Made by a program: the position numbers and the translations under genes
Shown: positions 35,083-64,000 of the stretch, in pieces
How the letters are laid out: the number at the start of each line of letters is the position of its first letter
How positions within the stretch are numbered: position 1 is the first letter of the stretch
The notes under the pieces: generated by a model
What the model saw: only the letters and a program-made list of their open reading frames with translations
The model's database searches: none
Told to the model about the DNA's origin: nothing
NCBI GenBank assembly: GCA_025094145.1
Contig: JALLLS010000006.1
Span: 744,001-808,000, forward strand
DNA from: Spinellus fusiger
Lineage: Eukaryota; Mucoromycota; Mucoromycetes; Mucorales; Phycomycetaceae
Reading direction: 5' to 3'
DNA: 64,000 nt

Positions 35083-37046
35083 TTACCCATTGAGCTTTTG
35101 TGTTATCTCTGTCAGATTCAAGTGTAACACCTTTTCAATGAAACGACCAATTTCAATATTCTCATGACTGCCATACAGTGGCTCAATGCCTTTCCCGTAG
35201 GCATATAGATTTACATCAACGCCACTATGGCCAAGTGTTGCCCACTAAACAGTGCAAGTCATTCAATGAATGGTTCGTTTGTATTGATCTTACTCCTAAC
35301 TGTGCTCTGAGAGACACCATGCTGGCCAAATATATATTCATTGATGCAATTGTCACTATGGCCTCTAAGCCATGTTGCTCTTCTTCGGTTACATCAGTGA
35401 TGGCCAGATACTTCTCAATTTGGCTTACAATAGCATGCCGATTTCCAAACATGTTCTCGTGTTTCATGCGGGTAGCTAGAATAATGGTGGATTGTTTAAC
35501 CTTTGTTAGGACATCAGGATACCTTTTAAAAGCAAGAATCAATAACAAGCCCTTTTCATCAACTTCCTCCTCCCCCTTTTCTTGTAATACCATAGATATT
35601 CAGGATACTTTGCCGATACTTGACGTGAGAGAGAAAGTCCACCTGTTTCATGGTCACTTGTCGAAATCATAATAGTGTCTGGGTGTTGATCCACAAAATC
35701 TTTGACAAGGGCAACTGTCTTTTGATACTCCATAATATCATGAACATGAGTTGCTGCATCGTTTCTAACGCAAAAGAGTGTCATTATCACCTGTTTTATT
35801 TTTAGGTAAAGTGTTTGTGTAAATCTTACGAATGAGCTGCCATGTCAATTCTGCTTCCTTCAATCATTAAGAAAAATCCCTTTTCGGAGGATGCTGTTGA
35901 TTTCAAAAGAAGGTCGAGTGCTTTGTTGGACATCTCAGTGAGACTAGGCTCTTTACTGGCATTGCGATCAATAGTATAATCCATATGCTAAAGAAATGAT
36001 GAGCATCTACTGATTGCTAATCTGCACCCCCTACTTACGCCGTGACTGAACAAAAGCATGGCAGGCAATACAGTGGGATCGGTAGGTAATGTATCAAATG
36101 CTGTTTTGTTATTATATTCAATTGTCTTCCAGTGATGTCGATCAGCGGCTTCTTTTAACAGGTCACGGTGATCCTTACGACATCCTCCCTTTGATTTCGG
36201 AAGAAAATGACAGTAGCCCCCACCCATCATAAGATCTACAACGCGTCCAAGAGGATTGTCTCCTATCTGTTGTATAGCAATCGCATCTTCGTCATCTCTC
36301 TGAGGCACATGCGCTGAAAAAGAGGCTGGTGTTGCATGTGTAATTCGAGAGGTAGCCACTAGGCCTGTTTTCATGCCATGATATTTGGCTGATTCAAGTA
36401 CAGTGCCGCATGGGTTTCTCTTGGGATCCACTGTTTGGCATGCATCAGCTTCTTGTTCTTACTTTTATATCAGGAAATCCTAGACTGTTTTACCTCCTAC
36501 TGCACCATTGTATGTTTTAAGTCCACAACTAAAAGCAGTGGCACCAGCTGCACTGTCTGTAACAAGCGTAGAAGCACTGCGAGTACGAGACTGTCCAACA
36601 TGGATTGTGTCCAATGGCATAGCATAGTCAAAAGGATGACCATTGATGTACTGATAGTATACTCTTGAAAAAGCAACTGAAGCAGGACCCATACCGTCGC
36701 TTATCATCATTATTACATTTCGGATAGGCTGTATGTCTGTGTCTAGGTCTTCAGTAGTGCTGATGGGTGAAACAAGACTGTCTTTTTGTAGAGTTGAGGC
36801 AAACATTCCTGCAAAAAATGTTCCTACAAACATAACAAGACATAGCACTGTTGCAATAATAAAAGTGCTTTTTCTTATCTATACAAGGCAGCATAGGATT
36901 CTTTAGAATAAGCTTTGTACTTGTAAGAATAGCCAGCTTACGATGCTATGGGTTGGTGTACCATTCCATGTCTCTTCTTCTACCACTTTAGAATCCTCAC
37001 TATGAGAAGTGTTGTAGTCTACGTCTCCTAATAGAGGTTCACTCAT
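35083..37046 (-). CDS. alkaline phosphatase, vacuolar (Pho8-like), one-base frameshift
   Basis: Zinc/magnesium phosphomonoesterase, by analogy with Pho8 a type II vacuolar membrane protein. Six reverse-strand exons: 37046-36942, 36878-36494, 36430-36039, 35987-35830, 35764-35294, 35244-35083, about 557 aa. A single anchor follows a short N-tail (RKSTFIIATVLCLVMFVGTF). Metal-site Asp is in MMISDGMGPAS, catalytic Ser in VTDSAAGATAF, ligands in EGSRIDMAAHSND and STSDHETGG, and the C-terminal metal His in LGHSGVDVNLYAYG. One base is missing near 35,571-35,580, in the AAAAGGGGG run of the coding strand; downstream the frame is excellent, so a consensus error is the likeliest cause. From 35,647 rightwards the gene lies in the palindrome. 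Confidence 0.93.
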
Positions 37047-37756
37047 GAAAAAGAGAAAAATAAGAAGGGGAGAAAAACTGACCAAAAATGAATAGGTGAG
37101 TGGCTTTTGAAAACCAGCAAATGTCCACTGGCAATGTGTGTAACTAACAGCAGTCAACCCAACTTTGCAAAGTATGTGTGCTATTGGACTCTTCACTTTA
37201 AAGAAGTGAGTGCTCCTAAAAATATAGCACTTTTTGTAGTTCTAATAAAATAGATTCTTCTCTAGTGTCATTAAATTAAAATAACTTGGTCAAGGAAATA
37301 TATAATTAAGAACAAACGCAATGTCTACAGTGTACTCATTAGTGCCATTCATTGAGAATTCTACTTACTCTTTATAGCTAATGTCCAATTGTCCTAAACA
37401 ATAATAATGATAAAAGGTTTAAACCTCAGCACGGCCTTTCTCTCAATAGAAATTATTATAGCTTTTTAGTTGCACTGCTCGTGAGGAAATATAGGTAACT
37501 TTTAACAATGTGTTGACCCTCTTAAGGCAGGCAATATAGAGTTGTACTCTTCTTTATTACATTTTTTCATTGACTGGAACTGTATTGAATCTGTAAAAAC
37601 AAAGAAAATACCTAACATTCAGGTGATATCACTGACTTTCATGACTGGATAGAGCAGTACAGATTTTCTTTTATTATTAAGGATGTAATAGATGGGAACT
37701 ATCTTTCAATTTTTTTTTTAAAAAAAAAACAAATTGACCTAAGCAAAGTCTTAGTT
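37047..37756. other. intergenic in the left arm
   Basis: No gene. A T/A hairpin around a TTTTTTAAAAAA core lies at 37,709-37,737. Confidence 0.5.
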
Positions 37757-38667
37757 TATAGTTCAAGACATTTTTATTCTATTCTCGAGTGTTCTATGTT
37801 CCTATTATGCATTGAGTCTTATGGCCACCTTAAGAGAACTTAAGAAACTTAAAAGATGTTACATACAAAACATTTCAAATACAAGAATAAGGAATACAAC
37901 GTAAAGAATAGGGAAAAGAGAGAGGAAAAAAAGGAATAAATATCGATAAAGAAAATAGAGCATCAAAAAGATAACTGTCATCTTATGATAATTAACACCC
38001 TATAAAGTGATAATTTCAGTAACTTGAATACTCCTCAAAGATATAAACACAATAACCACATGAACAGTTCCTAAGTTTAACAAATAGTCTGAGAGTATGT
38101 GATAAAGGAAGAATTAGAAGAGTAGTGGCCACGAGTTTGTTAGAAGGTTCCTTGAAATCTATAACAATGTTAGTATCTATGTGCAGTAAACTCACCAACA
38201 GCTTCAATAAATAAGCTACCAGGTGATCACTCTACCAGATTGTACCAAGTGGACATAGATTGATCAATGACATGAATCTGTATTAACATACTGGACCAGA
38301 AACTTCATCAGTTAATGGGAAACTCAACTTCATATGTCAAAAGATTTAGGCAAAAATCAATAAAATGTATATTATTGGGGGATATAGAAGCTGGGAAGAA
38401 ACAACATATAAAAAGGACTATCAATCTATGTGTATTCAAGAAAATGACTTGATTGGATGACGTATCCACAATGACAAGGAACCAAATACATTGGTAGTAC
38501 TCAAACAATCCTTCATATCAAAAGATAAGGTTTCTATTTGCATATTCACAATAATAATAAAAATTAAATCCTATAAAGTTTTATTCTGAATGCTTCAGTC
38601 TGCGGGATAAGGCGCCGGAGAAGTATGTCTTCAAAGATGGTGGCTGTATGTTTAACAAACTTGGTTT
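37757..38667 (-). mobile_element. decayed LINE 3' copy (left arm)
   Basis: Reverse-strand fragments align with the ORF2 C-terminus at 11,804-12,670: KAKFVKRPATLPED against NKPSLLNIQPPSLKT, and IHPIDYCLNLL against IHFIDFCLNLL. A 3' UTR with the GATGACAGTTATCTTTTTG block follows, ending CTTGAACTATA. Many stops. Confidence 0.75.
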
Positions 38668-39129
38668 GTAAATAAATCTAGTTAGACAGCCTAAAAAAAT
38701 TTAGACTTTATAACTGTATCTCTAATAAGATAAAGTATCGGTCTGGTTGTCTTATAGATCTGTAGCAAGTAGAAGCCCAGCCTATTGATATCTCAAATTG
38801 TCAATTTTTACTCAAGGATTAACCGAAAAAAGGTGTATTAGCTCTGAGAGCAGCGGTAATGCTCGGCTATGCATATTTATAATTAGTATAAATAGCATGC
38901 ATAAAAGCACCAATGTCCATTATGATTTTTGGAAGCATAGCCATAAGCTTAATATGAATAATGATTATAAAGTGACCCTCAACAAATAACCAGAAATATT
39001 CAGATGCAGATTTCTTATTTTATATATACTTTTCTTAATAGTATTATAACTTTATGAATTCATTAGATAAAGATGTGAAATTTTCAATAGATACATAAAA
39101 TAGTGTTTATAATACAAAACAGTGGTTTT
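38668..39129. other. no gene seen (left arm)
   Basis: AT-rich spacer between a LINE relic and a Tc1 relic. Confidence 0.4.
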
Positions 39130-40190
39130 TATTACAAGGTTGCTTAGTAACCACGGCTAGTATTTGTCTCCTATCATTGTATGGCATCTCCGCCTTATGA
39201 TGGCAATAAGGGTGTCTATTGCCTTTGATACATTATCCCATTCCAGCATCAGAGCCGCCTCTAATTTTGCCTTGGTGATATACACCCTTATGTCCTTCCT
39301 AATGATCTTCTTGGGGTGGGCCCACAGATGCTCAATTGGATTGAGATCAAGACTTTACAATAGTGAGTAAAGAGTCATTGCTATACCATTTGCTGCCATT
39401 CACTATCGAGTTGTTTTACTTGTATGGGGTCTATCACTGTCCTCCTTTAGACAGTAACCTACTCCGGGATTTAGGAGAGAAATATGAGTTCATGGCAGTA
39501 GACTTCTCCCAAGATACTAATGTACTTGTCGGAATTTATCCCACCCTCCACTACAATCCATCTCCCAACATCCTCTCCACAGAAACCGCTTATACCATCA
39601 CTCTATCACCCCCAAACTACCTTGTTTCCATAACATTCTTGGGCTCAAAGGCCGTTCCATATCGCATTATGATTTCGATACTTCTTTTACAGCTCATGAG
39701 CTCCACCCGGACTCATCCAACTAGACTATCTATTGCCACTGCTCATGAGTCTATTTGATATGTTCTTGGGCCCACTAGACTCTAGACTCTATATTCTCTC
39801 TCTTTTTTTTTGTCAAAAGAGACTTGACTACCAGACTGAGTGAATGAAAGCCCATTCGTCAAAGTTTTTCTTCAAGTCCTGTCTGAGACCTTGATGGCCA
39901 TGTTGCCTAGTGGTTCTTTGGTTTGTTGAGGATTGTCTAAGCTGTTCTTCTCAACACCGGAGAGCCTGTAGTCAAACTTCTATTTCAGCCATCTTGGGTG
40001 AAGGAACCATCGAGCCGTTTCTTGTAGTGCTTCACGATGTCCTACAGTGGAAGAAAGTACGTTAACATGCGAGATGCCTGGCCTAGTGTTTAGGTTCAGC
40101 ACCTAGTGCAAGATGACTGTACAAGTCTCAAAGCTGGTCTATTTCCCATACCTATCGGGGGTCTTTCTGAATATGTTCATGGTGCTAGAT
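39130..40190 (-). pseudogene. Tc1-like transposase relic (left-arm version)
   Basis: The reverse strand shows DLNPIEHLWAHPKKIIRKDI and a C-terminus ending MIGDKY, with earlier fragments FEPKNVMETR and GDRVMV. Stops and frameshifts are frequent. This copy differs from the right-arm counterpart by scattered substitutions in its 3' half and about 20% in its 5' half, unlike the nearly identical flanks. Confidence 0.75.
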
Positions 40191-40685
40191 GAGCTAGAAA
40201 TTATAAGAAAAGAAGTGTTATGAACAGAGAAAATAAATAGTGTATGTTATTTTCTTGTATAAAAATATCCCGAGATTTGAAGGTTTCCGGTTATTTGTTG
40301 AGGGTCACTTTATATTTCATGTATCTGCTAATGAGAATGTTAAGAAAATTACAGCTTCATTTTGGTTGAAAAAAGTGAGTAATAGATACACTTACTATAG
40401 TTGTGAAATTTTAACATTTTATTATGTTTTTATTCAGACGCAAATGCCTTAAAATTTATTTAATGGACAATGCTTTAAAAGTAAAGTCTATACTTAGAGT
40501 TTATCAAGTCAATTATAATTAAGTAGAGTTGAGATATATATAAATATAAACCACTTAGAATTAGAAAACCTGGTAAATAGACTTTCTATTCTACCTTACA
40601 CCTCTTGTTTTTATTATTATTATTAAAAATCAGAGTATTATTAATGTTATAAATATGCATTTGAAAAATTGTAATATAGTACAGT
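40191..40685. other. no gene seen (left arm)
   Basis: AT-rich interval between the Tc1 relic and a LINE 3' end. Confidence 0.4.
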
Positions 40686-41060
40686 TCAAAACACTTTTTA
40701 TTTTATTTTCGGGTGTGTTTATATGCTATTCGAGCACTGAAACTGATGGCCATGTTATAAGAACCTTTTATTGTTATTATTATTTTAAATAAAAAAAATA
40801 AAAAATAAAAGCAAAGTGAAAGAAACAAGAAGGTAGAAGTAAATAATACTTCTAATTGAAAGAACATTAAGAGATGAGAGTAAATGAGAATGCAAGAATA
40901 GATATACAAAAATCCATAAAACCAGTAAGGAAAATAGGACACCAAAAAGATAACTGTCATCCTGTGGTGATTAGAAATCTAACAAGATAATTAAATAAAC
41001 TCAAACAATCCTGAGGACACAAATACATAAGCTAGACTAAAAGCTTCTGGCTTTGCTATA
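40686..41060 (-). mobile_element. LINE 3' UTR fragment (left arm)
   Basis: The reverse strand has GCAAAGCCAGAAGC, CCTCAGGATTGTTTGAG, GGATGACAGTTATCTTTTTG and ends AGTGTTTTGAACTGTA, matching the other LINE copies. It lies 167 bp beyond the stop of the complete P450. Confidence 0.8.
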
Positions 41061-41226
41061 TATTTATATAAATATATGCTTTTTGTTTGAGGTAAAATAA
41101 AACATTCAATTATAAAACTAACATGGAAGTTAAAAGGTTGACATGTTTACCATAGTTTAGTATAATGTTTGAGACATATAATTATGCTAAATATAACATT
41201 AATAGGATTAAAAAAAACAATAGATC

Positions 41227-43303
41227 TTAAAGAAGTCTATCAGGACGTTCAATAAACCGTAATTTATAAGGCTTGAACCTTATAACTAGTCCACCATCAA
41301 CACTACTCTCGATATCACCATACACAGGACTTCCACTTGAGTCAAGTGCTGGCTCAATAGTACACCGTGCCAAAAGAGTGGTATATGTAAGGAAAAGCTC
41401 TGCTTCAGCCTATTATAAAACAGTTTGAATATTTTTGTTAGTATGCAGAAAGACGGGTTTACGCTATAAGACTTCTCAAAACACTTACCAAGTAGATCCC
41501 AGGACACATACGTCTGAGTAAACATGAGATGAAATGTTAATAACATAGAACTAGTTAAAGTGAGCTATTCTATTTTGTACCTTCCCCATCCAAAGTTAAA
41601 CTGGTCTCTTTCTGTTGGCTTTCCAGTAGCAGATGCATGAAATGTAGACTTGTTATTATGAAGCGTTCGGGAATGAATTTGTCTGGATCAGGATAGACAT
41701 CAGGGTTTCTGTGCATGCTATACATATCACTGATCAAGGTAGTTCCTTTCTTAATAATATAATTGTTCACTACAACTAAGGATATAAATTAGCTTTTTTC
41801 ACATAATAAAACAAGACTTTACTTACAATCTTCTTCAGCCATATGAGGAATTCCATACATTGTAGTAGGATAGAAGCGCAAGAGTTCTCTTTGAAAAGAT
41901 GTTATATATGGAAATTCTTCACGCTCTGTAAAATTTGGTAATCGCTTATGCTTGGTGATAAAAGCATCAATCTCTGTATACATTTTCTTTTGAATATCAG
42001 GATAGTGAGATAAAAAGACCAAAGCTTTAGAAAGTACAACAGAAACAGTATCTGTTCCACCAATAATCAGATCAGCTAAAAGGAAATAAAAATAATAAGT
42101 TATTTTCTGGAATAAAACATTTGCTAGAATTCTACTTACAGATAATCACCAACATGTCGTCTTTATCATACACATTCTTTTTATCCAGTTGCTTTATATT
42201 TTTGACCATACAATCCTCATCTCCTTCAAGAGCTTCGATTATTAATTTTCTCAAGACTGAATTACGTAAATTGATATAGTCCTTTCTCCTTTTGTTTTTG
42301 TCTTGAATATAGTTCATAAAGCTAAGGGGTGGAATGAATGTATCGATATTTTCTCCAATACCAGTGTGAAACTGAGTTAAGTACATTATTTCTAAAAGAT
42401 TCAAAAAGACTGGATCGTTTGTCGATTCAAATCGGGTACCCAAACAGACTTTTGTAATCACATTAAGGGATCTGAAGGTTAGATCATTGAAGGGATCTAT
42501 TCCTTCATTAGACTTTCCGTGAGTTATCAACCGGTCGATGAGATAGCTTGTCTCAAACCGAATTTTATCGCCCAGCTGATCTACAACTTTAGATGCCAAA
42601 TAGCCACTCACTATAGCATAGAATTAGAACGATTTCTTTCCGTAAACTTGTTTTTTATTCTTATTTTACCAGCAAACCTTGCTTCTTTAAGCTTCTTTTT
42701 GTTTCTGGAAAATGCCATTCCTCTAAGTAATCAAATTTTATTAAATATGTTGTTATATTATTTGAATATAAATATTTCTTTTTACCTTCCATTCATAGTG
42801 TAGAAATCATCACTAAATTTGTTGGGTGGTCGTAAAGTAGTAATAGCTCCATTGACACTAAATACTTTATGGGCAATAGATGGATCAGAAATGAATATAA
42901 AGTCTTGTACACCCATTTTAACATGAATTATAGGACCTAGGAATTTATTAGTAGGGCTGTAATGGGTAAACCATTGACAAGGTAAGATTCATATGTACCA
43001 AGCTCTTTATGCCACTCGTGTAGTTTTAAATATGAATTTTCACCAATATTTAGTAAATGTCCTAAACAATATAAGCATCATTATCTTCTTGCTATGAATT
43101 GTGTACTCACCAATATATGGGTATTTTCCTTTTGGCATAGGAATCTGGTCAAATTCGCTAGCTTCTTTATTTCTGGAGCTGGAGTACAGTGCAAACATAG
43201 CTGTACCCATAGCCATAACTCCTGCACTTCGAAGTGAGTGATTTTTTAAAAGGCTAATCACATAAGATTGATTCTCAAAATAGGGAAATGAAATGAAACT
43301 CAT
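41227..43303 (-). CDS. cytochrome P450 (left-arm copy), one frameshift
   Basis: Complete gene of nine exons, mirror of the right-arm copy, 527 aa when the frame is read through. N-terminal anchor in SAGVMAMGTAMFALYSSS; KLHEWHKELGPIIHVKMG; helix I LIIGGTDTVSVVL with the conserved acid-Thr pair; ExxR as ELLR in QRELLRFYP; PERF; haem loop FGWGRRMCPGIYL spread over three exons, with the invariant Cys; end IERPDRLL. Exon 7 (about 41,776-41,582) lacks one T in the TTT run near 41,656, so PERFI shifts out of frame, whereas the right copy is intact there. Exon 5, broken in the right copy, is intact here. Function is unknown; it is related to the remnant at 11,262. Confidence 0.92.
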
Positions 43304-43984
43304 AGATAATAAAGAGTAGAATGAAATAGAATAATAACAAACTACAAATTATTATTTCTTTATAATTTTACATGCTTCAACGTATGTGTTTCGAAACTCA
43401 TACATATCAATATAGTATGTTTTGTGTATCACATTTAGATGTATAGACGTTTACACAAAAATACATAACTTTGCCGGACGTTATACTGTATTTCAATATG
43501 CAATGGAGAATTAACAACCTCATTATTGTGTTTTAACTTAGAACTATAAATATTGGTATTTTCAACCGATAAATACATCTGATTTTTTACATATTAAGTT
43601 TTCAATGGATGCTTAACCCTTGAGTCGATGCTTTAGTAAATCTTACTAGAATAAAAAAAATTATTGAAAAAAAAAAAAAAAGCGAGATTGTAAGGCTTTT
43701 CTTTAATTGCATGGCAAACACAAATGTGAAAATTGAATATGCAAAAAACAATACTATTCCATAGCCTTATGTTATATTTACTTTATTTCTACTCTTTTCT
43801 GTAAATTCCATGCTCATTTAGCTTGCTCTGTTTTCATTCTTCCTTTTATCTCAGCTTAATTATTTTGCAAGTGATCGTGTCAATTATTATTTTTCATTTA
43901 AACCCTCAGTGCGGCGTATGACTGCGTAGAGATGCTTAAATAAAGTGTCTTAAACAAAAAATTATGAAATATATGTACGTTTGG
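43304..43984. other. upstream region of the P450, left arm
   Basis: No gene. An A-run lies at 43,665-43,680. The P450 promoter should be here. Confidence 0.4.
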
Positions 43985-44470
43985 CAAAGGGTAAATTCTT
44001 GAGACACACAGGACCTCGGGAAAGGCTGGCTGCTCTTGCAGGTATGTGCGTTGGAGGAGCTTGTAAATGATACGGTGGGAACTTGATTCTTTACAGCTGC
44101 GAGAACTATGATTTGGTGGTTTGGAAGAGGTGGTCTGAGAGCAGATCTAGAGGAGCATGAGAAACAAAGGCAACCTTCCTAACGGAGAACCAATGAAACG
44201 GACAAACAAGAGGACAAACAGGAACAGAACAAGAACCAACGACTATACTTCACCAAGGATGTAAACTACCCTTCTTTGGAATCCAAGGTATAAGTTGACT
44301 TCTGTTTATTAAACTTGGATTTAGCTATTTTATATATTCTTATCTGACACCTTTCCTTCTACACACCAGGAGATTTTTCTGGCTTTTAGGCGGGATATCT
44401 CCGTTTTACGTCCAAAAATATTTGCCCTTTTATGAAATTGTATTTAAAATCAAAGGTTTGCAAGTATCTG
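43985..44470 (-). repeat. LTR-like repeat R1 (left arm)
   Basis: Same family as 6,390-6,850. Several G/C runs here are one base shorter than in the right arm (43,914; 43,985; 44,079; 44,120; 44,393), a pattern expected of homopolymer undercalling. Confidence 0.65.
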
Positions 44471-45084
44471 TAATAAAAGGCACTAAGGTTATCAACAAGA
44501 CCACTAGATAGACAGATGTATAGATATTGGGACTCTAGCAGGGACAAAGAAATAGATTATTAGTACAAAGGCTGGTCTAGGGAAATCAAAGAGGGTACAT
44601 GAACAGGAACACAACACACAGTTTGATCACAACGGGTAACGAGGCAACTGTTCTTTAAGCAATTCTTTTCTTTCTAGAATGTTGTTGTAGTCTACATTAC
44701 TTTGGTGGTTCTGATCAAGCAAATGACTTGTGAAATTTGGTTTTGTTCTCTTCTGTTCGGATATAAATACCTGCCAACCACACTATCTGTTTTCTCCATA
44801 ACTTCTACCCTCTTTATTTTGTTTGTCTTTGCCTGGCATATAAACCAATAGTTGTAATCTGGTGAGTGTTTGTGTATGTTTATTATGTCTGACATGTTAG
44901 TCAGTTTCCATTGTATATTCTTTTACTATAATAAACCCAGTGAATCCGTTACAAAAGCAAAGGCAAGAGGAAGGTTCCAGTGCAAGGGTAATACGACATA
45001 CACACAGAGTACATTAATGCATCTCGAACTAATTATTTTTACTGTTTTATTAGTTAGAAGGGGTATTGGCACCTAAGAATATTG
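44471..45084. other. no gene seen (left arm)
   Basis: Between repeat R1 and the TnpB-like relic. Short frames only. Confidence 0.4.
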
Positions 45085-45525
45085 GAGTATGATCCTACCA
45101 AACTGGCAGTTGTTGCTTATGACACAGGAATAAAGGTAAAATATGCTGCCAAATTTAAAGGCCATTGTGTTGGTTTGATGAGAATTTTATATCAATCATT
45201 GAAAAAAGAGACAAAAGGGCAGAGATCTTCTTATGGTTGATGTTGATAAATTTCGAAAATCGAGAGTAAACATGATTGACCTCTTACCCAATATAAAAGG
45301 CTCTTCTAACAGCTATTTTTTTTGTTTTTCTTTTCAAGATCTGCCACACTTATAACACAAATATCCTCACCGAGGTATTAATAAATCTCAACAATATCTG
45401 CACTTGCCAAAGTTGTGGAATTGTTTGGAACAGAGATGTGATTGCATCAAAGAATATCTATACAATTGCAGAAGAGTGTTTAAATGGTCGCCACAGACTA
45501 GTTCCATTCTGTCGAGAAGCATAGA
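45085..45525 (+). pseudogene. second-type TnpB/Fanzor-like C-terminal relic (left arm)
   Basis: Fragments in shifting frames: YDPTKLAVVAYDTGIK, SLKKETKGQRSS, VDVDKFRKSRVN, then zinc-ribbon and RuvC-III text ICHTYN..., ICTCQSCGIVWNRDV and ASKNIYTIAEECLNGR. CxxC followed by WNRDV(I)AS.NI is the TnpB-type end. It differs from the Fanzor at 7,372-8,607, so it is another subfamily. Stops and frameshifts; non-functional. Confidence 0.7.
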
Positions 45526-45944
45526 TATTCTTTGATGCATTCATATTATATATCGCCACATCGAAAGTGGTTTCCTCTGGGATTCAGATATTTACAGGTA
45601 AATTTACATAATCTTTATTTATTTAAAAACTAACATGAATACATCTTAGTTTATTTTTGCTCCTTTTCAAATCGATGTGTCATTTCTTAAACAATTATAT
45701 TTCGACTATTTTCTTTTATATCCTAAAGATATCCTGGTGTGTACCTTATTTTAGCAACTTCCATATCTTCTACTTTTCTACAATCATCCATGCAAATAGG
45801 TGACGTGTCTTCGCCTATTCTACATATGGTTCAAAAAAGACTTACATGTATCTTGGTTTAGTGCAGCGATAACTACACTGGATTCTTTTTTTGATGTTTT
45901 GATGGATTAGTTACTACTAGATGGCTGTTTGTCTGATTGTCGTT

Positions 45945-46292
45945 GATTAATAAAGATCAAAAGCTTCATTCTAAGAAATGGGATTAGGCCATTGACATTC
46001 TGGTTTTTCCACAGCAGGAGTATCTTTATATGAATAATTAGTTATGCAACACTTGGATAACTCTGGCTCTTTCCTTGATGTATTTTGCAAACCTTTCACA
46101 ATTGACTGTTGAAGATGTATGTCCTGACATAAATAACTCAGCTGGTTTCACTGCATCAGGCTTCAAGTTCTCACCGAGTTTCCTGAACTTTCTCAATTTG
46201 TTTTCAATAGCACTTTGATTGCTAGTGTATTGGTATGTTCTCTTATTTTCTACAGTGCTATCTTCATGCATGCAATAGAGTATGTCAGCCAT
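45945..46292 (-). pseudogene. Fanzor RuvC-I-side relic (left arm)
   Basis: The frame DILYCMHEDSTVENKRTYQY then TSNQSAIENKLRKFRKLGEN aligns with DLLFCMQENSTPDNKSTYRY and the following residues of the Fanzor at 8,607. After a frameshift, PFLRMKLLIFINQRQSDKQ aligns with PFRKMKLSSHINRLQSDKR. The fragment begins just after the catalytic Asp, so the active site is lost. It is fused upstream to LINE-type sequence. Confidence 0.78.
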
Positions 46293-46545
46293 AGAGAGAA
46301 AGAAAAGAGGCCACCAGAAATAGGATCCTGAAGCGAGGTAATTGACTTTGCAGTCTCTCTTTGTTTGATGGTCCTATAGAAATAGGCATTTGACTGCTCG
46401 CCCTGTTCACATGACTTGACACTAGTACTCTGGGCAAGATTGGCAGTTCGGGTCTACTTTAAGTTGCTAAGGTCAGCCTCAACACTAGAAAAATCTAGAG
46501 AGAGACCTCTCATATTGAGGGTCTCTAATTGAAGAGGGCCAATGC

Positions 46546-53066: not shown

Positions 53067-53319
53067 GCATTGGCCCTCTTCAATTAGAGACCCTCAATAT
53101 GAGAGGTCTCTCTCTAGATTTTTCTAGTGTTGAGGCTGACCTTAGCAACTTAAAGTAGACCCGAACTGCCAATCTTGCCCAGAGTACTAGTGTCAAGTCA
53201 TGTGAACAGGGCGAGCAGTCAAATGCCTATTTCTATAGGACCATCAAACAAAGAGAGACTGCAAAGTCAATTACCTCGCTTCAGGATCCTATTTCTGGTG
53301 GCCTCTTTTCTTTCTCTCT

Positions 53320-53667
53320 ATGGCTGACATACTCTATTGCATGCATGAAGATAGCACTGTAGAAAATAAGAGAACATACCAATACACTAGCAATCAAAGT
53401 GCTATTGAAAACAAATTGAGAAAGTTCAGGAAACTCGGTGAGAACTTGAAGCCTGATGCAGTGAAACCAGCTGAGTTATTTATGTCAGGACATACATCTT
53501 CAACAGTCAATTGTGAAAGGTTTGCAAAATACATCAAGGAAAGAGCCAGAGTTATCCAAGTGTTGCATAACTAATTATTCATATAAAGATACTCCTGCTG
53601 TGGAAAAACCAGAATGTCAATGGCCTAATCCCATTTCTTAGAATGAAGCTTTTGATCTTTATTAATC
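53320..53667 (+). pseudogene. Fanzor RuvC-I-side relic (right arm)
   Basis: Mirror of 45,945-46,292. It is joined at its 5' side to LINE-like sequence and lacks the first catalytic Asp. It is followed at about 53,785-53,850 by the block shared with 6,890-6,960, in the same relative order as in the Fanzor element. Confidence 0.78.
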
Positions 53668-54087
53668 AACGACAATCAGACAAACAGCCATCTAGTAGTA
53701 ACTAATCCATCAAAACATCAAAAAAAGAATCCAGTGTAGTTATCGCTGCACTAAACCAAGATACATGTAAGTCTTTTTTGAACCATATGTAGAATAGGCG
53801 AAGACACGTCACCTATTTGCATGGATGATTGTAGAAAAGTAGAAGATATGGAAGTTGCTAAAAATAAGGTACACACCAGGATATCTTTAGGATATAAAAG
53901 AAAATAGTCGAAATATAATTGTTTAAGAAATGACACATCGATTTGAAAAGGAGCAAAAATAAATTAAGATGTATTCATGTTAGTTTTTAAATAAATAAAG
54001 ATTATGTAAATTTACCTGTAAATATCTGAATCCCAGAGGAAACCACTTTCGATGTGGCGATATATAATATGAATGCATCAAAGAATA

Positions 54088-54528
54088 TCTATGCTTCTCG
54101 ACAGAATGGAACTAGTCTGTGGCGACCATTTAAACACTCTTCTGCAATTGTATAGATATTCTTTGATGCAATCACATCTCTGTTCCAAACAATTCCACAA
54201 CTTTGGCAAGTGCAGATATTGTTGAGATTTATTAATACCTCGGTGAGGATATTTGTGTTATAAGTGTGGCAGATCTTGAAAAGAAAAACAAAAAAAAATA
54301 GCTGTTAGAAGAGCCTTTTATATTGGGTAAGAGGTCAATCATGTTTACTCTCGATTTTCGAAATTTATCAACATCAACCATAAGAAGATCTCTGCCCTTT
54401 TGTCTCTTTTTTCAATGATTGATATAAAATTCTCATCAAACCAACACAATGGCCTTTAAATTTGGCAGCATATTTTACCTTTATTCCTGTGTCATAAGCA
54501 ACAACTGCCAGTTTGGTAGGATCATACT
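54088..54528 (-). pseudogene. second-type TnpB/Fanzor-like C-terminal relic (right arm)
   Basis: Mirror of 45,085-45,525; zinc ribbon and WNRDV motif on the reverse strand, opposite to the neighbouring Fanzor relic. Confidence 0.7.
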
Positions 54529-55139
54529 CCAATATTCTTAGGTGCCAATACCCCTTCTAACTAATAAAACAGTAAAATAATTAGTTCGAGATGCATTAAT
54601 GTACTCTGTGTGTATGTCGTATTACCCTTGCACTGGAACCTTCCTCTTGCCTTTGCTTTTGTAACGGATTCACTGGGTTTATTATAGTAAAAGAATATAC
54701 AATGGAAACTGACTAACATGTCAGACATAATAAACATACACAAACACTCACCAGATTACAACTATTGGTTTATATGCCAGGCAAAGACAAACAAAATAAA
54801 GAGGGTAGAAGTTATGGAGAAAAACAGATAGTGTGGTTGGCAGGTATTTATATCCGAACAGAAGAGAACAAAACCAAATTTCACAAGTCATTTGCTTGAT
54901 CAGAACCACCAAAGTAATGTAGACTACAACAACATTCTAGAAAGAAAAGAATTGCTTAAAGAACAGTTGCCTCGTTACCCGTTGTGATCAAACTGTGTGT
55001 TGTGTTCCTGTTCATGTACCCTCTTTGATTTCCCTAGACCAGCCTTTGTACTAATAATCTATTTCTTTGTCCCTGCTAGAGTCCCAATATCTATACATCT
55101 GTCTATCTAGTGGTCTTGTTGATAACCTTAGTGCCTTTT
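54529..55139. other. no gene seen (right arm)
   Basis: Mirror of 44,471-45,084. Confidence 0.4.
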
Positions 55140-55650
55140 ATTACAGATACTTGCAAACCTTTGATTTTAAATACAATTTCATAAAAGGGCAAAATATTTT
55201 TGGACGTAAAACGGAGATATCCCCGCCTAAAAGCCAGAAAAATCTCCTGGTGTGTAGAAGGAAAGGTGTCAGATAAGAATATATAAAATAGCTAAATCCA
55301 AGTTTTAATAAACAGAAGTCAACTTATACCTTGGATTCCAAAGAAGGGTAGTTTACATCCTTGGTGAAGTATAGTCGTTGGTTCTTGTTCTGTTCCTGTT
55401 TGTCCTCTTTGTTTGTCCGTTTCATTGGTTCTCCGTTAGGAAGGTTGCCTTTGTTTTCTCATGCTCCTCTAGATCTGCTCTCAGACCACCTCTTCCAAAC
55501 CCACCAAATCATAGTTCTCGCAGCTGTAAAGAATCAAGTTCCCCACCGTATCATTTACAAGCTCCTCCAACGCACATACCTGCAAGAGCAGCCAGCCTTT
55601 CCCGAGGTCCTGTGTGTCTCAAGAATTTACCCTTTGCCCAAACGTACATA
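55140..55650 (+). repeat. LTR-like repeat R1 (right arm)
   Basis: Forward order: GCAAACCTTTGATTTTAAA block, TATATAAAATAG, TTTTAATAAACAG, CCTTGGATTCC, GTTCTTGTTCTGTTCCTG, then a short conserved frame (about 55,440-55,660). TATA box plus AATAAA within about 40 bp fits an LTR; no gag or pol is attached. Confidence 0.65.
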
Positions 55651-56315
55651 TATTTCATAATTTTTTGTTTAAGACACTTTATTTAAGCATCTCTACGCAG
55701 TCATACGCCGCACTGAGGGGTTTAAATGAAAAATAATAATTGACACGATCACTTGCAAAATAATTAAGCTGAGATAAAAGGAAGAATGAAACAGAGCAAG
55801 CTAAATGAGCATGGAATTTACAGAAAAGAGTAGAAATAAAGTAAATATACATAAGGCTATGGAATAGTATTGTTTTTTGCATATTCAATTTTCACATTTG
55901 TGTTTGCCATGCAATTAAAGAAAAGCCTTACAATCTCGCTTTTTTTTTTTTTCAATAATTTTTTTTATTCTAGTAAGATTTACTAAAGCATCGACTCAAG
56001 GGTTAAGCATCCATTGAAAACTTAATATGTAAAAAATCAGATGTATTTATCGGTTGAAAATACCAATATTTATAGTTCTAAGTTAAAACACAATAATGAG
56101 GTTGTTAATTCTCCATTGCATATTGAAATACAGTATAACGTCCGGCAAAGTTATGTATTTTTGTGTAAACGTCTATACATCTAAATGTGATACACAAAAC
56201 ATACTATATTGATATGTATGAGTTTCGAAACACATACGTTGAAGCATGTAAAATTATAAAGAAATAATAATTTGTAGTTTGTTATTATTCTATTTCATTC
56301 TACTCTTTATTATCT
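55651..56315. other. upstream region of the P450, right arm
   Basis: No gene; mirror of 43,304-43,984. Confidence 0.4.
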
Positions 56316-58393
56316 ATGAGTTTCATTTCATTTCCCTATTTTGAGAATCAATCTTATGTGATTAGCCTTTTAAAAAATCACTCACTTCGAAGTGCAGGAG
56401 TTATGGCTATGGGTACAGCTATGTTTGCACTGTACTCCAGCTCCAGAAATAAAGAAGCTAGCGAATTTGACCAGATTCCTATGCCAAAAGGAAAATACCC
56501 ATATATTGGTGAGTACACAATTCATAGCAAGAAGATAATGATGCTTATATTGTTTAGGACATTTACTAAATATTGGTGAAAATTCATATTTAAAACTACA
56601 CGAGTGGCATAAAGAGCTTGGTACATATGAATCTTACCTTGTCAATGGTTTACCCATTACAGCCCTACTAATAAATTCCTAGGTCCTATAATTCATGTTA
56701 AAATGGGTGTACAAGACTTTATATTCATTTCTGATCCATCTATTGCCCATAAAGTATTTAGTGTCAATGGAGCTATTACTACTTTACGACCACCCAACAA
56801 ATTTAGTGATGATTTCTACACTATGAATGGAAGGTAAAAAGAAATATTTATATTCAAATAATATAACAACATATTTAATAAAATTTGATTACTTAGAGGA
56901 ATGGCATTTTCCAGAAACAAAAAGAAGCTTAAAGAAGCAAGGTTTGCTGGTAAAATAAGAATAAAAAACAAGTTTACGGAAAGAAATCGTTCTAATTCTA
57001 TGCTATAGTGAGTGGCTATTTGGCATCTAAAGTTGTAGATCAGCTGGGCGATAAAATTCGGTTTGAGACAAGCTATCTCATCGACCGGTTGATAACTCAC
57101 GGAAAGTCTAATGAAGGAATAGATCCCTTCAATGATCTAACCTTCAGATCCCTTAATGTGATTACAAAAGTCTGTTTGGGTACCCGATTTGAATCGACAA
57201 ACGATCCAGTCTTTTGAATCTTTTAGAAATAATGTACTTAACTCAGTTTCACACTGGTATTGGAGAAAATATCGATACATTCATTCCACCCCTTAGCTTT
57301 ATGAACTATATTCAAGACAAAAACAAAAGGAGAAAGGACTATATCAATTTACGTAATTCAGTCTTGAGAAAATTAATAATCGAAGCTCTTGAAGGAGATG
57401 AGGATTGTATGGTCAAAAATATAAAGCAACTGGATAAAAAGAATGTGTATGATAAAGACGACATGTTGGTGATTATCTGTAAGTAGAATTCTAGCAAATG
57501 TTTTTATTCCAGAAAATAACTTATTATTTTTATTTCCTTTTAGCTGATCTGATTATTGGTGGAACAGATACTGTTTCTGTTGTACTTTCTAAAGCTTTGG
57601 TCTTTTTATCTCACTATCCTGATATTCAAAAGAAAATGTATACAGAGATTGATGCTTTTATCACCAAGCATAAGCGATTACCAAATTTTACAGAGCGTGA
57701 AGAATTTCCATATATAACATCTTTTCAAAGAGAACTCTTGCGCTTCTATCCTACTACAATGTATGGAATTCCTCATATGGCTGAAGAAGATTGTAAGTAA
57801 AGTCTTGTTTTATTATGTGAAAAAAGCTAATTTATATCCTTAGTTGTAGTGAACAATTATATTATTAAGAAAGGAACTACCTTGATCAGTGATATGTATA
57901 GCATGCACAGAAACCCTGATGTCTATCCTGATCCAGACAAATTCATTCCCGAACGCTTCATAAATAACAAGTCTACATTTCATGCATCTGCTACTGGAAA
58001 GCCAACAGAAAGAGACCAGTTTAACTTTGGATGGGGAAGGTACAAAATAGAATAGCTCACTTTAACTAGTTCTATGTTATTAACATTTCATCTCATGTTT
58101 ACTCAGACGTATGTGTCCTGGGATCTACTTGGTAAGTGTTTTGAGAAGTCTTATAGCGTAAACCCGTCTTTCTGCATACTAACAAAAATATTCAAACTGT
58201 TTTATAATAGGCTGAAGCAGAGCTTTTCCTTACATATACCACTCTTTTGGCACGGTGTACTATTGAGCCAGCACTTGACTCAAGTGGAAGTCCTGTGTAT
58301 GGTGATATCGAGAGTAGTGTTGATGGTGGACTAGTTATAAGGTTCAAGCCTTATAAATTACGGTTTATTGAACGTCCTGATAGACTTCTTTAA
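56316..58393 (+). CDS. cytochrome P450 (right-arm copy), one frameshift
   Basis: Exons 56316-56508, 56558-56620, 56683-56833, 56897-56949, 57009-57478, 57544-57792, 57844-58039, 58107-58131, 58211-58393. All splice phases agree except exon 5, which is one base short: CTTTTGAATC at about 57,211 replaces CTTTTTGAATC of the left arm. Corrected length is 527 aa. Motifs as in the left copy: I-helix GGTDTVS, ExxR (ELLR), PERF, haem FGWGRRMCPG with the Cys ligand in a 25-nt exon. Exon 7, broken on the left, is intact here (PERFINNKSTFHASATGKPT). Each arm thus supports the other's frame. Substrate and CYP family are unknown. Confidence 0.92.
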
Positions 58394-58559
58394 GATCTAT
58401 TGTTTTTTTTAATCCTATTAATGTTATATTTAGCATAATTATATGTCTCAAACATTATACTAAACTATGGTAAACATGTCAACCTTTTAACTTCCATGTT
58501 AGTTTTATAATTGAATGTTTTATTTTACCTCAAACAAAAAGCATATATTTATATAAATA

Positions 58560-58935
58560 TATAGCAAAGCCAGAAGCTTTTAGTCTAGCTTATGTATTTG
58601 TGTCCTCAGGATTGTTTGAGTTTATTTAATTATCTTGTTAGATTTCTAATCACCACAGGATGACAGTTATCTTTTTGGTGTCCTATTTTCCTTACTGGTT
58701 TTATGGATTTTTGTATATCTATTCTTGCATTCTCATTTACTCTCATCTCTTAATGTTCTTTCAATTAGAAGTATTATTTACTTCTACCTTCTTGTTTCTT
58801 TCACTTTGCTTTTATTTTTTATTTTTTTTATTTAAAATAATAATAACAATAAAAGGTTCTTATAACATGGCCATCAGTTTCAGTGCTCGAATAGCATATA
58901 AACACACCCGAAAATAAAATAAAAAGTGTTTTGAA
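58560..58935 (+). mobile_element. LINE 3' UTR fragment (right arm)
   Basis: Mirror of 40,686-41,060; ends AGTGTTTTGAACTGTA. Confidence 0.8.
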
Positions 58936-59429
58936 CTGTACTATATTACAATTTTTTCAAATGCATATTTATAACATTAATAATACTCTGATTTTTAATA
59001 ATAATAATAAAAAACAAGAGGTGTAAGGTAGAATAGAAAGTCTATTTACCAGGTTTTCTAATTCTAAGTGGTTTATATTTATATATATCTCAACTCTACT
59101 TAATTATAATTGACTTGATAAACTCTAAGTATAGACTTTACTTTTAAAGCATTGTCCATTAAATAAATTTTAAGGCATTTGCGTCTGAATAAAAACATAA
59201 TAAAATGTTAAAATTTCACAACTATAGTAAGTGTATCTATTACTCACTTTTTTCAACCAAAATGAAGCTGTAATTTTCTTAACATTCTCATTAGCAGATA
59301 CATGAAATATAAAGTGACCCTCAACAAATAACCGGAAACCTTCAAATCTCGGGATATTTTTATACAAGAAAATAACATACACTATTTATTTTCTCTGTTC
59401 ATAACACTTCTTTTCTTATAATTTCTAGC
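58936..59429. other. no gene seen (right arm)
   Basis: Mirror of about 40,191-40,685. Confidence 0.4.
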
Positions 59430-60492
59430 TCATCTAGCACCATGAACATATTCAGAAAGACCCCCGATAGGTATGGGAAATAGACCAGCTTTGAGACTTG
59501 TACAGTCATCTTGCATGAGGTGCTGAACATAAACACGAATATGGCCGAGGCATCTCGCATGTTCAACGTACTTTCTTCCACTGTATAGAGCATCGTGAAG
59601 CACTACAAGAAAACAGACTTGATGGTGCCTTCACCCAAGAGTGGCTGACAAAGATAGTTGGACTACAGGGCCCTCAGATGGTTGAGAAGAACAGTTATGA
59701 GGGATCCCCAGCAGACCAAAGATACCATCATGTTAGACATGGCTATCAAGGTATTAGACAAGACTATGAGGTAACACTTTGATGAGATGAGCTTTCATTC
59801 ATTTGTTCTTGTAGTCAAGCCTTTTTTTTTTAAAAAAAAAAAAGAATAGCATAAAGGTAAGGTTCCAGTGGGTCCACGAGCACCTTGGTTGGACCCATGA
59901 GCAGTGGCAGGAAGTTGTCTGGTCCAATGAGTCCAAAATCGAGCTCATAAGCTATGACAGGGGGGGGGTAATATTCATTAAGCAGCATTTAATGACCTTT
60001 GAGCCTAAAAATTCACCATAAACAAGGTAGTTTGGGGGTGATGGAGTGATGGTATAAGCGGTTTCTTTGGAGAGGATGTTGGGAGATGGATTGTAGTGAA
60101 GGGTGGGATAAATTCCGACAAGTACATTAGTATCTTGGGAGAAGTCTACTGCCATGAACTCATATTTCTCTCCTAAATCCCGGAGTAGGTTACTGTCTAA
60201 AGGAGGACAGTGATAGACCCCATACAAGTAAAACAACTCGATAGTGAATGGCAGCAAATGGTATAGCAATGACTCTTTACTCACTATTGTAAAGTCTTGA
60301 TCTCAATCCAATTGAGCATCTGTGGGCCCACCCCAAGAAGATCATTAGGAAGGACATAAGGGTGTATATCACCAAGGAGAAATTAGAGGCGGCTCTGATG
60401 CTGGAATGGGATAATGTATCAAAGGCAATAGACACCCTTATTGCCAGCATAAGGCGGAGATGCCATACAATGATAGGTGACAAATACTAGCC
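59430..60492 (+). pseudogene. Tc1-like transposase relic (right-arm version)
   Basis: Fragments in order: helix-turn-helix text NTNMAEASRMFNVLSSTV then IVKHYKKT; FQWVHEHLGWTHEQWQEVVW with SNESK (first catalytic region); FEPKNSP; DLNPIEHLWAHPKKIIRKDI (third acidic residue); C-terminus MIGDKY with stop at about 60,490. Many stops. It differs from the left-arm version enough to look like another member of the same family over the 5' half. Confidence 0.75.
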
Positions 60493-60979
60493 GTGGTTAC
60501 TAAGCAACCTTGTAATAAAAACCACTGTTTTGTATTATAAACACTATTTTATGTATCTATTGAAACTTTCACGTCTTTATCTAATGAATTCATAAAGTTA
60601 TAATACTATTAAGAAAAGTATATATAAAATAAGAAATCTGCATCTGAATATTTCTGGTTATTTGTTGAGGGTCACTTTATAATCATTATTCATATTAAGC
60701 TTATGGCTATGCTTCCAAAAATCATAATGGACATTGGTGCTTTTATGCATGCTATTTATACTAATTATAAATATGCATAGCCGAGCATTACCGCTGCTCT
60801 CAGAGCTAATACACCTTTTTTCGGTTAATCCTTGAGTAAAAATTGACAATTTGAGATATCAATAGGCTGGGCTTCTACTTGCTACAGATCTATAAGACAA
60901 CCAGACCGATACTTTATCTTATTAGAGATACAGTTATAAAGTCTAAATTTTTTTAGGCTGTCTAACTAGATTTATTTAC
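60493..60979. other. no gene seen (right arm)
   Basis: Mirror of 38,668-39,129; AT-rich. Confidence 0.4.
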
Positions 60980-61890
60980 AAACCAAGTTTGTTAAACATA
61001 CAGCCACCATCTTTGAAGACATACTTCTCCGGCGCCTTATCCCGCAGACTGAAGCATTCAGAATAAAACTTTATAGGATTTAATTTTTATTATTATTGTG
61101 AATATGCAAATAGAAACCTTATCTTTTGATATGAAGGATTGTTTGAGTACTACCAATGTATTTGGTTCCTTGTCATTGTGGATACGTCATCCAATCAAGT
61201 CATTTTCTTGAATACACATAGATTGATAGTCCTTTTTATATGTTGTTTCTTCCCAGCTTCTATATCCCCCAATAATATACATTTTATTGATTTTTGCCTA
61301 AATCTTTTGACATATGAAGTTGAGTTTCCCATTAACTGATGAAGTTTCTGGTCCAGTATGTTAATACAGATTCATGTCATTGATCAATCTATGTCCACTT
61401 GGTACAATCTGGTAGAGTGATCACCTGGTAGCTTATTTATTGAAGCTGTTGGTGAGTTTACTGCACATAGATACTAACATTGTTATAGATTTCAAGGAAC
61501 CTTCTAACAAACTCGTGGCCACTACTCTTCTAATTCTTCCTTTATCACATACTCTCAGACTATTTGTTAAACTTAGGAACTGTTCATGTGGTTATTGTGT
61601 TTATATCTTTGAGGAGTATTCAAGTTACTGAAATTATCACTTTATAGGGTGTTAATTATCATAAGATGACAGTTATCTTTTTGATGCTCTATTTTCTTTA
61701 TCGATATTTATTCCTTTTTTTCCTCTCTCTTTTCCCTATTCTTTACGTTGTATTCCTTATTCTTGTATTTGAAATGTTTTGTATGTAACATCTTTTAAGT
61801 TTCTTAAGTTCTCTTAAGGTGGCCATAAGACTCAATGCATAATAGGAACATAGAACACTCGAGAATAGAATAAAAATGTCTTGAACTATA
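60980..61890 (+). mobile_element. decayed LINE 3' copy (right arm)
   Basis: Mirror of 37,757-38,667. The clearest stretch is NTHRLIVLFICCFFPASIS then IHFIDFCLNLL, matching the ORF2 C-terminus at 11,804-12,670. Confidence 0.75.
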
Positions 61891-62600
61891 AACTAAGACT
61901 TTGCTTAGGTCAATTTGTTTTTTTTTTAAAAAAAAAATTGAAAGATAGTTCCCATCTATTACATCCTTAATAATAAAAGAAAATCTGTACTGCTCTATCC
62001 AGTCATGAAAGTCAGTGATATCACCTGAATGTTAGGTATTTTCTTTGTTTTTACAGATTCAATACAGTTCCAGTCAATGAAAAAATGTAATAAAGAAGAG
62101 TACAACTCTATATTGCCTGCCTTAAGAGGGTCAACACATTGTTAAAAGTTACCTATATTTCCTCACGAGCAGTGCAACTAAAAAGCTATAATAATTTCTA
62201 TTGAGAGAAAGGCCGTGCTGAGGTTTAAACCTTTTATCATTATTATTGTTTAGGACAATTGGACATTAGCTATAAAGAGTAAGTAGAATTCTCAATGAAT
62301 GGCACTAATGAGTACACTGTAGACATTGCGTTTGTTCTTAATTATATATTTCCTTGACCAAGTTATTTTAATTTAATGACACTAGAGAAGAATCTATTTT
62401 ATTAGAACTACAAAAAGTGCTATATTTTTAGGAGCACTCACTTCTTTAAAGTGAAGAGTCCAATAGCACACATACTTTGCAAAGTTGGGTTGACTGCTGT
62501 TAGTTACACACATTGCCAGTGGACATTTGCTGGTTTTCAAAAGCCACTCACCTATTCATTTTTGGTCAGTTTTTCTCCCCTTCTTATTTTTCTCTTTTTC
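61891..62600. other. upstream region of the phosphatase, right arm
   Basis: No gene; mirror of 37,047-37,756, including the T/A hairpin at about 61,910-61,938. Confidence 0.5.
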
Positions 62601-64000
62601 ATGAGTGAACCTCTATTAGGAGACGTAGACTACAACACTTCTCATAGTGAGGATTCTAAAGTGGTAGAAGAAGAGACATGGAATGGTACACCAACCCATA
62701 GCATCGTAAGCTGGCTATTCTTACAAGTACAAAGCTTATTCTAAAGAATCCTATGCTGCCTTGTATAGATAAGAAAAAGCACTTTTATTATTGCAACAGT
62801 GCTATGTCTTGTTATGTTTGTAGGAACATTTTTTGCAGGAATGTTTGCCTCAACTCTACAAAAAGACAGTCTTGTTTCACCCATCAGCACTACTGAAGAC
62901 CTAGACACAGACATACAGCCTATCCGAAATGTAATAATGATGATAAGCGACGGTATGGGTCCTGCTTCAGTTGCTTTTTCAAGAGTATACTATCAGTACA
63001 TCAATGGTCATCCTTTTGACTATGCTATGCCATTGGACACAATCCATGTTGGACAGTCTCGTACTCGCAGTGCTTCTACGCTTGTTACAGACAGTGCAGC
63101 TGGTGCCACTGCTTTTAGTTGTGGACTTAAAACATACAATGGTGCAGTAGGAGGTAAAACAGTCTAGGATTTCCTGATATAAAAGTAAGAACAAGAAGCT
63201 GATGCATGCCAAACAGTGGATCCCAAGAGAAACCCATGCGGCACTGTACTTGAATCAGCCAAATATCATGGCATGAAAACAGGCCTAGTGGCTACCTCTC
63301 GAATTACACATGCAACACCAGCCTCTTTTTCAGCGCATGTGCCTCAGAGAGATGACGAAGATGCGATTGCTATACAACAGATAGGAGACAATCCTCTTGG
63401 ACGCGTTGTAGATCTTATGATGGGTGGGGGCTACTGTCATTTTCTTCCGAAATCAAAGGGAGGATGTCGTAAGGATCACCGTGACCTGTTAAAAGAAGCC
63501 GCTGATCGACATCACTGGAAGACAATTGAATATAATAACAAAACAGCATTTGATACATTACCTACCGATCCCACTGTATTGCCTGCCATGCTTTTGTTCA
63601 GTCACGGCGTAAGTAGGGGGTGCAGATTAGCAATCAGTAGATGCTCATCATTTCTTTAGCATATGGATTATACTATTGATCGCAATGCCAGTAAAGAGCC
63701 TAGTCTCACTGAGATGTCCAACAAAGCACTCGACCTTCTTTGAAATCAACAGCATCCTCCGAAAAGGGATTTTTTCTTAATGATTGAAGGAAGCAGAATT
63801 GACATGGCAGCTCATTCGTAAGATTTACACAAACACTTTACCTAAAAATAAAACAGGTGATAATGACACTCTTTTGCGTTAGAAACGATGCAGCAACTCA
63901 TGTTCATGATATTATGGAGTATCAAAAGACAGTTGCCCTTGTCAAAGATTTTGTGGATCAACACCCAGACACTATTATGATTTCGACAAGTGACCATGAA
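62601..64000 (+). CDS. alkaline phosphatase, second copy (cut by the right edge)
   Basis: Mirror copy of 35,083-37,046. Exons 62601-62705, 62769-63153, 63217-63608, 63660 to about 63817, then 63883 to the edge. Anchor, MMISDGMGPAS, VTDSAAGATAF, EGSRIDMAAHS and STSDHE are all present. Exon 4 carries two compensating one-base changes relative to the left arm: CTTCTTTGAAAT lacks a T near 63,739 (giving an early stop) and the T-run at about 63,771-63,776 has one extra. Between them about 11 codons are out of frame. The C-terminal quarter lies outside the window. Confidence 0.92.

Follow-up and report, generated by a model that had tools for sequence, protein, structure and literature searches.

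A near-identical palindrome edged by inverted LTR-like repeats at a contig end of Spinellus fusiger: a probable recent inverted duplication

How does a stretch of fungal chromosome come to stand head to head with its own mirror image? The question is raised by a 64,000-base stretch of DNA from the Mucorales fungus Spinellus fusiger (the window; bases 744,001–808,000 of contig C154, GenBank JALLLS010000006.1, which is 810,443 bases long and belongs to an assembly, GCA_025094145.1, of 38.08 Mb in 197 contigs), the right-hand part of which is a giant palindrome. An initial annotation, made from the letters alone, described near-identical arms of at least 13.75 kb, still open at the window end and tens of bases apart in length, and offered three origins for them: a recent inverted duplication, a head-to-head join of two haplotypes or nuclei, and an assembly fold-back. 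In our opinion, the palindrome is probably a real and recent inverted duplication that was nucleated at two inverted copies of a long terminal repeat-like (LTR-like) repeat, here called E. Positions given below without a contig name are those of the window.

Comparison of the window with itself by BLAST returns a single long inverted match, 35,647–49,397 against 64,000–50,215 (98.76% identity over 13,796 columns, E = 0), exactly where the initial annotation had placed it. A match of this length cannot be put down to chance. When the 2,443 bases of the contig that lie past the window are added, the match grows to 33,202–49,397 against 66,443–50,215 (98.94%, 16,241 columns); position 66,443 is the final base of C154, and the right arm is still open there. 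The left arm (33,202..49,397, plus strand), which runs on uninterrupted into the remainder of the 810-kb contig, measures 16,196 bases. The right arm (50,215..64,000 within the window, minus strand, continuing outside it to the contig end) measures 16,229 bases, a difference of 33, and the whole palindrome is about 33 kb. The palindrome is thus confirmed, and it is longer than had been described: its arms are open at position 64,000 and reach 16.2 kb.

The claim of near-identity holds for all but one patch, which the initial annotation had missed, as it had the end of the contig in the right arm and the LTR-like edges of the centre. Outside positions 39,074–40,106, the alignment of the two arms contains 15,153 identical columns, 1 substitution and 26 gap columns, while the patch itself contains 904 identical columns, 129 substitutions and 25 gap columns. 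All but one of the 26 gap columns outside the patch are changes in homopolymer length, the remaining one being in a CT repeat, and once homopolymers are collapsed only two differing places are left there. A paralogue compared at homopolymer sites agrees with the right arm at 43,982 and with the left arm at 44,207; since it sides once with each, both arms seem to carry some homopolymer errors. Differences of this kind would be expected of an unpolished long-read consensus where reads lack unique placement.

The evidence on how the palindrome arose lies at the inner edges of its arms. The innermost 839 bases of each arm are a copy of E (TGTT...CACA; 48,559..49,397, plus strand, on the left and 50,215..51,053, minus strand, on the right), interrupted by a 256-base insert H (TGTT...AACA; 48,905..49,160, plus strand), which is nested in E with the target duplication AGCTA and is copied in the right arm. 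It should be noted that the label LTR-like, as used for E and H and for the repeats E2 and F described below, rests on TG...CA ends, to which 4–5-base duplications are added in the case of E, H and F. The first 346 bases of E are present in at least 41 places outside C154 at 96–98% identity (40 of 790 candidates scored), and at many of the places listed the two halves of E are contiguous, with no split by H. An exact-string search in the sequences compared found six E 3′ ends, four elsewhere (L003, L005, L007 and L061) and both of those described here, which read TAATCACA and then diverge. Both inner edges of the arms are exactly this E 3′ terminus.

The two copies of E nevertheless differ in what surrounds them. 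The right E is inserted in a second LTR-like repeat, E2, and interrupts it with a 5-base target duplication, GTACT, on either side; the first 176 bases of E2 (50,039..50,214, plus strand) lie in the spacer between the arms and its remainder (51,059..51,513, plus strand, the end being approximate and taken from similarity to a copy on contig C138) lies beyond E in the right arm. That other copy of E2, at 61 kb of C138 (L005), is an empty site: it runs through with a single GTACT and is collinear with the interrupted one (92% identity, 651 columns). The left E shares its outer flank, AGTAC, with the right one, and its inner end abuts CCTTC, which belongs to another repeat fragment; it has no target duplication, and the mirror of E2 in the left arm (about 48,098–48,553) lacks the first 176 bases. 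The duplication of GTACT and the empty site on the right, with no such duplication on the left, identify the right junction as native and the left as recombinant. On this reading of the sequences, the right side is the native one and the left arm is a copy joined to the spacer at the exact end of E.

The spacer (49,398..50,214, 817 bases) is asymmetric and consists of more than the beginning of E2. Next to the left arm is the repeat fragment G (49,398..49,669, plus strand), which is 75% identical to positions 12,236–12,521 of the window; the similarity begins at the first base past the left E. It is followed by a tRNA-Leu gene (anticodon CAG; 49,709..49,792, minus strand) and by a dispersed LTR-like repeat with TG...CA ends, F (49,802..50,038, plus strand), which begins about 10 bases upstream of the tRNA gene, ends near 50,034 and has AGTG on both sides. 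In a genome search in which 40 of 1,066 candidates were scored, F is covered at full length in at least 36 places in the assembly, and the left part of the spacer (49,398–49,705) has no second near-identical copy among the matches listed. A tRNA gene with an adjacent LTR-like repeat is, from work in yeast, a plausible place for replication forks to stall. As a separate matter, the position of F beside the tRNA-Leu gene might reflect a tRNA-targeted insertion, an observation that concerns this site only. G was also considered as a proven long interspersed nuclear element and was not accepted as such, the open reading frame that it resembles (11,804–12,670) having no Pfam match and being LINE-like by eye only.

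These features can be accommodated by a simple series of steps. The ancestral order would have been a left side, since lost, followed by E in forward orientation, G, the tRNA-Leu gene, F, the start of E2, E in reverse orientation nested in E2, and the right arm; G would thus once have carried a forward E of its own, inserted at CCTTC. The left side may then have been lost or bypassed, for example when the DNA broke or a fork collapsed close to the tRNA/LTR cluster, whereupon the two inverted copies of E, about 0.8 kb apart, would have paired, most likely on sister molecules. Synthesis from the left E would have copied the right arm outward, giving a palindrome that is edged by the ends of E and keeps the spacer once. 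What the sequence itself shows is the anatomy, the native junction on the right, the recombinant one on the left and the scarcity of substitutions; we infer the second E on the left, the manner of pairing, and the setting of the event in the organism rather than in a library or an assembler.

Products of this general form are known. Nearby inverted repeats fuse at replication forks in yeasts, giving dicentric and acentric palindromes with no break needed. The likeness to the present case is that nearby inverted repeats are the sole homology required; template exchange at a fork would leave the same product as annealing, and sequence alone cannot separate the two. More generally, large palindromes that arise from inverted repeats are known mainly from yeast experiments and from tumours. 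In budding yeast, inverted repeats close to a break are reported to anneal mostly between molecules when their spacer is 1 kb long, yielding inverted dimers, while a 12-base spacer between such repeats gives fold-backs (PMC6103520). The palindrome resembles these single-strand-annealing dimers in having repeats about 1 kb apart, a spacer that is present once, one side doubled and the other apparently lost. It differs from them in that the yeast dimers were induced by a cut, whereas here, in an early-diverging fungus, the event would be natural, the repeats are solo LTR-like ones by a tRNA gene, and the outcome alone is seen. At the Spinellus locus, the spacer is single and lies between inverted repeats, which make up the inner edges of the arms; the arms match outward from it, and one junction is native while the other is recombinant. 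The spacer of about 0.8 kb, the centre kept once and the absence of one side fit the inverted-dimer route.

The patch in which the arms disagree has to be explained by any account of the palindrome. It occupies 39,074..40,106 of the left arm, mirrored at 59,516..60,573 of the right, and holds 129 of the 130 substitutions between the arms; across its dense part, 39,548–40,106, the arms are 77% identical. The patch falls within a dispersed repeat, about 1.3 kb long, whose matches listed, apart from the two arms, are nearly all 71–83% identical (40 of 644 and 40 of 659 candidates scored). Since Pfam recognises DDE_3 and Tc3-type helix-turn-helix pieces in one member of the family (L025), the repeat is assigned to the Tc1/mariner-like elements. 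The version in the right arm is the more typical of the family: over the dense part it is 87% identical to L023 (which is the same as L042), 84% to L043, 82.5% to L044 and 81.5% to L045, L046 and L047, and the left version reaches at most 73.0% with any of the 17 sequences aligned besides the two arms (16 distinct copies, L023 and L042 being one). Of the 134 columns that differ between the arms, the family majority matches the right arm at 80, the left at 35 and neither at the remaining 19. Blocks of the left version recur in other copies, for example L024, and to judge from these shared blocks that version looks like a real member of the family rather than noise. Mis-correction of reads was considered as a source of the patch and is disfavoured, the left version being the less family-like of the two.

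Gene conversion could account for the patch. When the left version is searched against the genome (40 of 406 candidates scored), its best full-length match among those scored is the right arm at 78%; other full-length matches are at 73% or less, part-length matches of about 470 bases reach 75%, and a single 103-base piece reaches 82%. Elsewhere in the element, the right-arm mirror of 39,061–39,300 is 100% identical over 240 bases to a copy at 636 kb of C154 (L022), with flanks at 70% and 82%, and the left arm is 97.5% identical to that copy over the same stretch. From this tract, ectopic gene conversion seems to act on this Tc1-type element. The left arm's element was presumably overwritten after the duplication by a donor that is not found in the assembly; as the one part of the arms that could be old, the patch may instead be a relic that escaped conversion.

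Several observations weigh against a recent duplication seeded at E. The right arm stops at the contig end. Neither the last 1 kb of that arm nor the left flank (30,200–33,260) is held by any other contig, a result that an artefact predicts likewise. The conversion step proposed for the patch lacks a donor in the assembly. E2 as a whole lacks a target duplication; its insertion as one unit with such a duplication was considered and given up, as the flanks fail to match both at this locus and on C138, and the GTACT argument is independent of that. The former left side is absent from C154, and the pattern in which CCTTC is followed by the start of E occurs once elsewhere, at C136:275,109. This place was rejected as the lost left side: an E copy is present in the 2 kb there, and the sequence upstream has no similarity to the window.

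An assembly or library artefact, in which the assembler or a template-switched molecule turned at the inverted copies of E and reprinted one arm, is in our opinion unlikely, although it deserves serious consideration. In its favour, the contig ends inside the arm, at the arm's last base, and neither a third copy of the arm nor another flank was found. The search for a third copy sampled three parts of the arm (the outer 1 kb, 34,800–37,300 and 41,400–43,400), for which the near-identical matches in the assembly are the two C154 arms only; the remaining parts of the arm contain repeats or fell outside the search, and the repeats within the arms have additional copies elsewhere. The left flank, 30,200–33,260, has no match besides itself and the final 59 bases of C154. 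Moreover, nearly all differences outside the patch are homopolymer lengths, as might be seen in an unpolished long-read consensus.

What is known of fold-back reads leaves the spacer, taken by itself, indecisive. In one survey, such reads make up about 0.55–0.6% of nanopore genomic reads, may recur at the same place and can contain a spacer, about 2 kb lying between the segments in one example; they are described there as virtually absent from PacBio HiFi data, with three PacBio samples in all (PMC12870357). Another study states that amplified DNA yields artificial palindromes and that 0.5% of unamplified PacBio control reads were flagged (PMC6218980). The Spinellus palindrome resembles fold-back artefacts in being a mirror image, the segments of which may be separated in those artefacts by other sequence (PMC12870357), and is unlike them in its repeat-bounded edges and its divergent patch. 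Several points argue against an artefact. A random fold would not halt at a repeat terminus, and E, of just 0.58–0.84 kb, would be short for long reads to be misled by. The patch exists in two differing, family-like versions, an argument that holds unless the sample was mixed. Apart from the 103-base piece, the left version has no other locus above 75% among the 40 candidates scored, and being less family-like than the right one it is unlike a consensus pulled from paralogues. The fold-back proposed in the initial annotation is therefore disfavoured by the edge at a repeat terminus and by the 77% patch, which is family-like on both sides, yet the end of the contig inside an arm continues to speak for it; of the origins put forward there, the evidence most favours a recent inverted duplication, through its inverted LTR-like edges, the intact nested insertion on the right and the recombinant junction on the left.

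The contig end also bears on how far the duplication extends. The outermost substitution between the arms is 5,870 bases from it and the spacer 16.2 kb, and a stop beyond the last substitution would be expected when an assembler collapses two near-identical copies. Nothing observed limits the arms to 16 kb. It is conceivable, although rather doubtful, that the palindrome is chromosome-sized, the 793 kb of C154 being present twice, in mirror image, as an isochromosome-like inverted dimer; of the second copy, the assembly would then show no more than what reads anchored in the spacer or the patch could separate. A telomere at the contig end was considered and rejected. Three consecutive units of TTAGGG are absent from the 38.08-Mb assembly (2 + 1 occurrences of the reversed control), and three units of TTGTGG occur 26 + 11 times, fewer than their reversed control (77 + 53); no telomere repeat was identified by these two motifs, and the contig end is not tied to one.

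An old palindrome, held identical by arm-to-arm gene conversion and retaining the patch as its last unconverted stretch, seems to us quite improbable. Sex-chromosome palindromes do undergo conversion between their arms. The likeness of the present case to them lies in arms above 10 kb that are near-identical and separated by a short spacer, and the difference is that there is no evidence of long-term maintenance in this palindrome. Willow provides an example of such sex-chromosome palindromes (PMC7023750). Two observations would suit an old palindrome: the closest full-length relative of the left patch among the matches listed is the right patch (78%, with the others at 73% and part-length ones at 75%), and ectopic conversion is visible in the Tc1 family (the 240 bases at 100%). 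On the other hand, all nested inserts are common to both arms and a single substitution in 15 kb distinguishes them, so that age is not demanded, and a lone sharp patch within one transposon fits local conversion equally well. The initial annotation had named gene conversion as a means by which long palindromes are kept; such upkeep is not needed to explain these arms, though it may have taken place. The probabilities that we attach to the different readings partly overlap, because an old palindrome would likewise have been seeded at E.

It is very unlikely that the arms are two alleles or nuclear types of one locus, set head to head where the copies of E are inverted. The dense patch, 77% identical between the arms while the remainder agrees, could be read as allelic, and the suggestion of two joined haplotypes or nuclei retains that much; but a single substitution in the 15,154 bases compared outside the patch (about 15.2 kb) would be unusual for unlinked haplotypes, and a false join at E would still be required. 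Equally improbable is origin-dependent inverted repeat amplification, a process that uses very short interrupted inverted repeats and leaves three copies with such repeats at both junctions: an interstitial inverted triplication whose middle copy is cut short by the contig end is compatible with an open right arm for which no other flank was found, but the turning point here is a repeat of 0.58–0.84 kb, and the outer junction lies beyond the assembly.

If the palindrome is indeed an inverted duplication seeded at E, inverted dimers in an early-diverging fungus can start from ordinary solo LTR-like repeats beside a tRNA gene, and the extent of such duplications in wild fungal chromosomes becomes directly testable. 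What seems to be a natural event has apparently left a legible trace, in that nested insertions and their target duplications mark the original, the copy and the turning point. This suggests that target duplications at the turning point offer a cheap check for judging palindromes in assemblies. A limited look at the literature (titles and abstract openings) found no such palindrome in Mucorales, and no Spinellus genome report was found by title.

The palindrome is not the only inverted pair in this assembly. Contig C46, of 577 kb, contains an internal pair, 351,562–354,743 and 360,209–363,390, with arms of 3,182 bases that differ by 3 mismatches and no gaps and are 5.5 kb apart (L058 and L059, read base by base); inspection of the arm flanks revealed no obvious target duplication, and the pair may be a segmental duplication or the two ends of a larger element. 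Near-identical inverted pairs do, therefore, occur inside contigs, a point in favour of the palindrome being real. Pairs of inverted matches of equal score and equal length also appear in the match lists at C137:282190-287802 and at C1:56280-67630, both from the cytochrome P450 region of the arm, and inverted pairs equal in both respects are seen at C110:490718-496553 among matches to LTR-like repeats and, 103 kb apart, at C35:286274-390677 among matches to the Tc1-type element. The pairs on C1, C35, C110 and C137, known from match scores and lengths alone, suggest that near-identical inverted duplication is recurrent. In the same lists, from which matches below 200 bits were left out, no equal-score pair in direct orientation was seen by eye. 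Were the palindrome chromosome-sized, it would surpass in size every other case of recurrent inverted duplication here, those cases being the pairs on these four contigs and on C46.

The remaining features of the window are of lesser bearing. The left arm carries pieces of a cytochrome P450 gene (41,819..43,348, minus strand), with Pfam support at 41,819–42,620 and none for 43,040–43,345, and of an alkaline phosphatase gene (35,988..36,878, minus strand; Pfam). A 771-residue IPT/ankyrin protein is encoded at 21,900–24,212; its best hit is to Phycomyces blakesleeanus (70% identity over 77% of the query), its highest identity over a long stretch is to Spinellus fusiger (92% over 40%), and the remaining named top hits are largely from Mucorales, as would suit a fungus in or close to the Phycomycetaceae. 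An open reading frame of 290 residues on the minus strand (7,534–8,406) resembles Fanzor 1 of Parasitella parasitica in its C-terminal part (E = 2e-58) and also matches a Spizellomyces Fanzor (1.9e-25). Another minus-strand frame, at 46,038–46,373 and mirrored in the right arm, resembles by eye an N-terminal Fanzor relic, with no match in Pfam. Finally, self-comparison reveals short tandem arrays at 5,927–6,303 and 24,728–25,061.

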